From the IMG/VR virus record IMGVR_UViG_3300043640_000318, positions 1-62,444 of that record: a DNA stretch of 62,444 nucleotides, one strand, 5' to 3'. Positions 48,603 to 48,732 of this stretch are shown here, piece after piece (the first letter of the stretch is position 1; each line of letters begins with the position of its first letter). Source of the stretch: a virus. The notes beneath the pieces were generated by a model. That model was not told the DNA's origin, searched no databases, and was given only the letters and a program-made list of their open reading frames with translations. Position numbers and translations under genes: made by a program.

Positions 48603-48732
48603 GTTCCTGGTGTGCAGGCGAGGGCTACTTCTTTCTGCAAAAAAGGATCTCCGGGTTCGACTCCCGGTCCAGCCCGTAAGGGTTGGGGCCAAGGCGGCGA
48701 TAGCTATCTCTCACCGACTTGACCTCAGGAAC
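48603..48732 (+). ncRNA. Y RNA-like unit 4 with variant tRNA-like domain
   Basis: Basal stem 7 bp (48603-48609 with 48726-48732), internal loop GTGTGCA and GACTTGACCT, upper stem 48617-48624 with 48708-48715 containing one C-A mismatch. The cap has a hairpin with loop CTGCAAA (48629-48647, Cys-anticodon-like), a perfect T arm (48651-48667, TTCGACT), an 8-bp acceptor (48668-48675 with 48680-48687) closed by GTAA, and a 3-bp D-like arm (48688-48698). It is a second closed-acceptor tRNA mimic. Confidence 0.78.

Follow-up and report, generated by a model that had tools for sequence, protein, structure and literature searches.

Y RNAs encoded beside Ro60 genes, together with tRNA-like heads, were reportedly described by Chen in 2014 in both bacteria and phages, and phage RNAs of this kind are already known. 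In the model of Ro60 function, as given in the retrieved excerpts of two accounts, the Y stem attaches the RNA to Ro60 and the head captures an effector (PNPase in the case of Deinococcus), the Y RNA acting both as a gate and as a tether (PMC8394870; PMC4726728). Where the excerpts of published work describe YrlA heads, they name D, T and acceptor arms only. No anticodon-bearing class of Y RNA is found in the Rfam YrlA consensus, nor does any appear in the excerpts consulted of three papers that mention both YrlA and anticodon. We describe here a phage locus in which the last of several Y RNAs has a head of this type.

The window, that is, the whole stretch of DNA analysed here (a virus record of 62,444 bases), encodes tail sheath, tape-measure-like, head and helicase genes, plus a tRNA cluster, and the genome around the locus is actinophage-like. 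A frame of 1714 codons on the minus strand (55160–60304) has matches in several phage families, one of them a head maturation protease. Within the tRNA cluster, ARAGORN reports two genes with undetermined two-letter anticodons (15413–15482 and 15604–15674), whose anticodon loops appear one base short, and T-arm-like hairpins at about 15270–15295, 16608–16630 and 16660–16690, outside all tRNA calls, are possibly decayed or unusual tRNAs. The gene that matters most here (48780–50402, plus strand) codes for a Ro60-like protein of 540 amino acids, matching Pfam TROVE (E 1e-13) and, among solved structures, two TROVE proteins (E 1.5e-27). It is 35–44% identical over its full length to Ro-like RNA-binding proteins of actinophages and has homologues in 81 phage records; a search of viral contigs with a single TROVE protein gave no match. 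In two Streptomyces phages, JustBecause and Kela, an RNA ligase gene lies immediately upstream of Ro60 (L129:2229–2981 and L371:2229–2981), the Y RNA array of JustBecause being located farther upstream than the ligase gene.

Between an open frame on the minus strand (47,343–48,227) and the TROVE gene lies a tandem array of four units, 76–143 nt long and all on the plus strand, each made of a long end-to-end stem enclosing the core GGUGUG...UACUUC. Units 1 (48255–48342) and 2 (48358–48433), retrieved by an outer-stem search and folding, have the Y stem and UACUUC core without a tRNA-like domain. Unit 3 (48446–48588) has a YrlA-type head, with T arm, closed acceptor, D arm and an anticodon stem closed across the domain; it is a recognisable YrlA, though its match to Rfam model RF02553 (43.6 bits, E 2.4e-8) falls short of the gathering threshold, 69. 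Unit 4 (48603–48732, 130 nt) combines a Y stem with a permuted tRNA head and ends 47 nt before the start of the TROVE gene. Its core motif is common to units 1–3 and to Ro60 loci elsewhere. As the array adjoins the Ro60-like gene and shares this core, its four units are Y RNAs, partners of Ro60, unit 4 being the last, directly upstream of the gene. Its ends are paired, and it carries the conserved motif taken as the Ro60 site, which recurs in units 1–3 and in related arrays (11 actinophage loci); from this shared motif and the gene neighbourhood we infer that the motif would be the Ro60 site and that unit 4 would bind Ro60. A scan found no sigma-70-like promoter, and one terminator-like site on the minus strand falls inside the T arm. 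The first-pass annotation had seen in unit 4 a tRNA mimic, correctly noticing the closed acceptor and the anticodon-type hairpin while overlooking that a TROVE gene adjoins it and that it belongs to the Ro60 Y RNAs.

The outer Y stem of unit 4 pairs GUUCCUG (48603–48609) with CAGGAAC (48726–48732). The presumed Ro60 site would comprise a 5′ strand, GGUGUGCAG (48609–48617), similar in all four units, and a 3′ strand, GACUUGACC (48716–48724), present in units 1 and 4 and diverged in units 2 and 3. In the UACUUC core (48626–48631), UUC doubles as the start of the anticodon-type arm UUCUUU-CUGCAAA-AAAGGA (48629–48647), in which C is at position 32, U at 33, GCA at 34–36 and AA at 37–38. Then come the T arm CCGGG-UUCGACU-CCCGG (48651–48667), the closed acceptor UCCAGCCC-GUAA-GGGUUGGG (48668–48687; 8 bp, two of them G-U) and an atypical D-arm region, GCCAAGGCGGCGAUAGC (48688–48704). 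The 130-mer folds at −54.4 kcal/mol (shuffles −43.7 ± 3.9; z −2.8; 1 of 200 shuffles equally good). The perfect T arm (5/5 pairs) and the 8-bp acceptor closed by a tetraloop, both claimed in the first reading, hold, with pair probabilities of 0.95–1.0 save for the end U-G pair of the acceptor (0.12). Matters are less simple for the hairpin then called Cys-anticodon-like: its letters are present and relatives support it, but its probability in the free fold is 0, because CUGCA pairs with an upstream UGCAG, and it reaches about 0.2 with the presumed Ro60-site strands kept unpaired. Likewise, the 3-bp D arm GCC-AAGGC-GGC can be read in the sequence but has probability 0, and it competes with a tRNA-like reading with one mismatch, GCCA-AGGCGGCGA-UAGC, folding favouring neither; 123 of 138 relatives pass the D-arm test, which unit 4 fails. 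Judged on its own sequence alone, the anticodon hairpin would not be convincing, and for its D region and weak hairpin unit 4 is a weaker-than-typical member of the class described below. Neither ARAGORN nor Rfam at gathering level calls a tRNA at 48603–48732. Unit 4 does not form the linear cloverleaf, ending in a 3′ acceptor, of the tRNA family (RF00005), its acceptor being capped, and its exact de-permuted form is a tRNA for ARAGORN at a relaxed threshold only, not at default. That it differs from unit 3 had been rightly noted: in the latter, a 3-bp UUC/GAA mini-hairpin precedes the anticodon stem CUGAU/GUCAG, which closes across the domain, as in YrlA. From this difference the first reading proposed that the two RNAs may have different partners.

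Relatives were collected from viral and bacterial sequences with a pattern combining core and T loop, yielding at least 370 loci; a TROVE gene is present in 207 of 370 (76/119 bacterial and 117/237 viral pattern loci). All 11 actinophage Ro60 loci examined have core units, in arrays. Within 3 kb of TROVE genes there are at least 833 core sites, 391 of them with a T arm and 336 with a capped acceptor as well, so that a consistent loss of T-arm or acceptor pairing, named in the first-pass annotation as what would speak against its reading, is not seen. The UACUUC and T-loop letters are preset by the search patterns, one later set of which also presets part of the anticodon arm; their conservation and pairs 27–29 are therefore no evidence. 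Counts leave out L001 (which duplicates the window), one genuine tRNA found in L125, exact repeats and sites inside the TROVE gene. Some of them refer to 138 representatives under 80% identity, with the register chosen by pairing, to 207 representatives for which the first passing register was taken (unit 4 of the window is probably one base off there), or to 106 strict units with a D arm and real-tRNA suspects removed. An inner-stem filter on the strict set let 138/138 units through and had no filtering effect.

In 154 of the 336 capped units the T arm begins 24–25 nt past the start of UAC, a spacing that fits an anticodon arm, since it is what UAC, an anticodon arm of 17 nt and a variable loop of 4–5 nt add up to. 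Among 92 units at 25 nt, with hairpins unselected, the anticodon-stem register is 80% paired, against 39–55% in slid registers. In 79 dereplicated unselected units, the pair 30–40 can form in 68 (mean of shuffles 37.8, their maximum 49) and the pair 31–39 in 63 (mean 31.3, maximum 44), with U33, R37 and A38 found jointly in 57. These two free stem pairs covary strongly, so that class heads are complete tRNAs circularly permuted at 26/27, where the Y stem enters. The standard arm, 5 bp with a 7-nt loop, is frequent in Ro60-linked Y RNAs, and this comparison argues for the anticodon arm of unit 4. Unit 4 has every element defining the class (UAC, 17-nt anticodon arm, variable loop of 3–6 nt, T arm, closed acceptor) and is among the 138 representatives, with loop CTGCAAA. 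A stricter count, asking for U33 and R37 in such a loop, gives 135 of 335 capped heads (123 loci): 89 viral, 39 bacterial, 6 from named phages and that of the window. The 38 bacterial loci with anticodon-bearing Y RNAs include some from Streptomyces, Nocardiopsis, Paenibacillus, Ruminococcus, Bradyrhizobium, Hymenobacter and Chitinophaga.

In 56 of 239 headless Y RNAs, the best hairpin that follows UAC has a loop of 7 nt. The idea that the hairpin is merely the Y core's own small UUC/GAA hairpin was dropped, because headed units obey the anticodon rules far more than headless ones (U33/R37 in 98/110 against 22/46). Headless units (for example that at 1757 in L129) often keep a UUC / 7-nt loop / GAA hairpin, and many of their loops end in GGY, which may mark a second type of conserved loop. 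De-permutation followed by ARAGORN was discarded as proof: it calls a tRNA in 155 of 176 relatives, but also in 122 of 176 with anticodon-arm letters shuffled, and with its control mostly called too it is a weak test. The 20-nt hairpin stretch of unit 4 has only two matches in the collection, L369 and L370, both viral contigs with the stretch beside Ro60; phage JustBecause has it too, the stem still pairing, under the GenBank label tRNA-Cys. Five GenBank tRNA features beside Ro60 in phages (L121:2704–2775, Arg; L124:2774–2847, Ser; L125:2769–2843, Arg; L130:2745–2835, Pro; L129:1835–1905, Cys) include the UACUUC core and resemble units of Y RNA rather than tRNAs, which would make several annotated phage ‘tRNAs’ adjoining Ro60 genes Y RNAs.

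The cysteine identity suggested by the GCA triplet does not survive this comparison. There are 40 anticodon triplets among the 207 representatives, the best Cys tRNA ranks only 13th of 1066 for the body of unit 4, and the acceptor is capped, without a 3′ end, so that no charging is possible; Cys mimicry is rejected on these three grounds. Near-identical units switch triplet (AUUUUAA in Rabbitrun, AUGCUAA in Neville), and in all 12 loci with two anticodon-bearing units the anticodons differ. In 34 independent pairs of relatives, differences number 18 at position 34, 18 at 35 and 7 at 36, against 0 at 33, 3 at 37 and 1 at 38. Positions 34–35 are thus the fastest-varying of the anticodon and T arms and appear from these alignments to be at least free to vary; diversifying selection at 34–36 is not claimed, as 34–35 are only slightly above other free sites (T65, 15; T59, 14). 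Recent capture of a cognate tRNA is not supported either: with the loop masked, 13 of the 145 units have a tRNA of their own isotype as the nearest match to the body, where shuffling gives 7.8 on average and 17 at most.

The constrained element lies at positions 36–37. The 129 U33 loops of the 138 representatives comprise 65 U36A37, 32 G36G37, 11 A36A37 (the class of unit 4), 8 C36A37, 3 G36A37 and 10 others, when 1011 real tRNAs from the same loci include 362 U36A37, 117 G36G37, 177 A36A37, 208 C36A37 and 97 G36A37. Coupling of G36 with G37 (p 2e-22) and depletion of C36 (p 3e-6) are both marked. In the 106 strict units, G37 is found in 31 of 33 G36 loops and A37 in 51 of 53 U36 loops; after dereplication at 65% identity, U36A37 and G36G37 make up 43 of 53 units against 479 of 1011 tRNAs (p 1.5e-6). 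The coupling is tighter in Y RNA loops than in the real tRNAs that these loci encode. Units of the same array share a 36–37 type in 1 of 18 pairs (16 loci; shuffle mean 4.4; P 0.02), a suggestive count whose real-tRNA filter also discarded some true units (loci L151 and L284). In tRNAs, t6A37 follows the rule of TsaD and i6A37 that of MiaA. According to the excerpts of a review, U36 anticodons mostly have ct6A37 and A36 usually ms2i6A37, G36 anticodons have m1G37 or m2A37, C36 is usually followed by an unmodified base, and TrmD needs G36 (PMC11199890). Taken with these rules, the counts indicate that Y RNA loops favour t6A37- or m1G37-type classes. By analogy, modification enzymes may act at position 37 of anticodon-bearing Y RNAs, the precedent being the YrlA head, which available excerpts present as a substrate of DusA and TruB and as PNPase-binding (PMC8394870).

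We consider it probable that unit 4, a phage Y RNA, docks on Ro60 and that its permuted tRNA head tethers an effector recognising tRNA. The outer and inner stems would dock on the phage's own Ro60; the head runs through anticodon arm, variable loop, T arm, 3′ strand of the acceptor, cap, 5′ strand of the acceptor and D arm; the cap removes any end for charging or trimming, and the head would hold the effector to Ro60 much as PNPase is held in the known Ro60–Y RNA machine. Anticodon-bearing heads would probably also be handled by anticodon-loop enzymes acting at position 37. Against this stand the failure of unit 4 alone to fold the anticodon hairpin and its atypical D arm, while the 36–37 coupling could come from tRNA ancestors, even though C36 and G36A37 are much scarcer than among real tRNAs. 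The same weak A-U hairpin, D region and favoured alternative fold would suit a decaying copy whose resemblance to an anticodon arm is inherited or accidental; this is improbable, as the 20-nt stretch recurs beside Ro60 in the two contigs that are its sole matches in the collection, and persists in JustBecause with a stem that still pairs. A stronger contender, though still doubtful, sees the loop as scaffold only: U33, R37 and A38 would be kept for U-turn stacking on a permuted tRNA, and 34–36 left free without any anticodon-loop protein. The rapid change at 34 and 35 and the 7-nt loops often seen in headless Y RNAs fit this; yet it leaves the 36–37 coupling and C36 depletion unexplained, and the loop rule is weak in headless units.

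Variation at 34–35 next to near-invariant 33, 37 and 38, and the different anticodons of all two-unit loci, could also point to a decoy, the varied loops being baits or competitive inhibitors, held by Ro60, of host anticodon nucleases or tRNA-cutting toxins. An RNA ligase gene does adjoin Ro60 in two phages, and the YrlA head has been proposed, in the excerpts of one study, to inhibit an anticodon nuclease competitively; the same excerpts state, however, that this nuclease does not cut YrlA (PMC7790460). Moreover, the class is also present in 38 bacterial loci, avoidance of C36 and G36A37 is unexpected for a general decoy, and 34–35 hardly exceed free T-arm sites in variability, so that we deem this account distinctly unlikely. 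Returning to the docked Y RNA with its tethered effector, a bolder extension, rather unlikely at present, would be that this large Y RNA class consists of permuted tRNAs with loops selected as t6A37 or m1G37 substrates, Ro60 being armed thereby. It would imply a fast-changing anticodon face with different types in each array, unit 4 being of the A36A37 type; modified tRNA look-alikes borne by Ro60 might then capture modification enzymes or anticodon-loop nucleases or, alternatively, act as sensors of correct host tRNA modification in the course of infection. The class spans phages and several bacterial phyla, and its full anticodon arm extends mimicry to the part of tRNA targeted by modification enzymes and tRNA-cutting toxins. 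Because these heads have real anticodon loops, the competitive-inhibitor proposal becomes testable, and changes at 36–37 or at 34–35 would be a direct test of the purpose of Y RNA heads, read out as the partner lost.

Several known systems bear comparison with unit 4. Its loop CUGCAAA and T loop UUCGACU are those of the tRNA-Cys of the window (16326–16398), but its body is not Cys-like and it has no 3′ end. Like tmRNA and viral tRNA-like structures, it is an RNA that imitates tRNA; those molecules retain the acceptor end, which is capped in unit 4, and its score against the Rfam Tymovirus tRNA-like element is at chance level (E 0.48). The Deinococcus Y RNA of RYPER (Rsr–Y RNA–PNPase), as depicted in the excerpts consulted, likewise tethers an effector to Ro60; the effector there is PNPase, and the head of unit 4 differs in being a whole permuted tRNA. 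YrlA (RF02553) is Ro60-linked too, and it shares with unit 4 the Y stem and the permuted order of T arm and closed acceptor, after which YrlA has a D arm and unit 4 an atypical D-arm region. Unit 4 gives no match to the RF02553 model at E up to 5 (gathering cut-off 69 bits). The difference lies in the anticodon region: in its alignment, the YrlA consensus has a 4-bp anticodon stem closed across the domain and no anticodon hairpin, whereas unit 4 and its class have a full anticodon arm.
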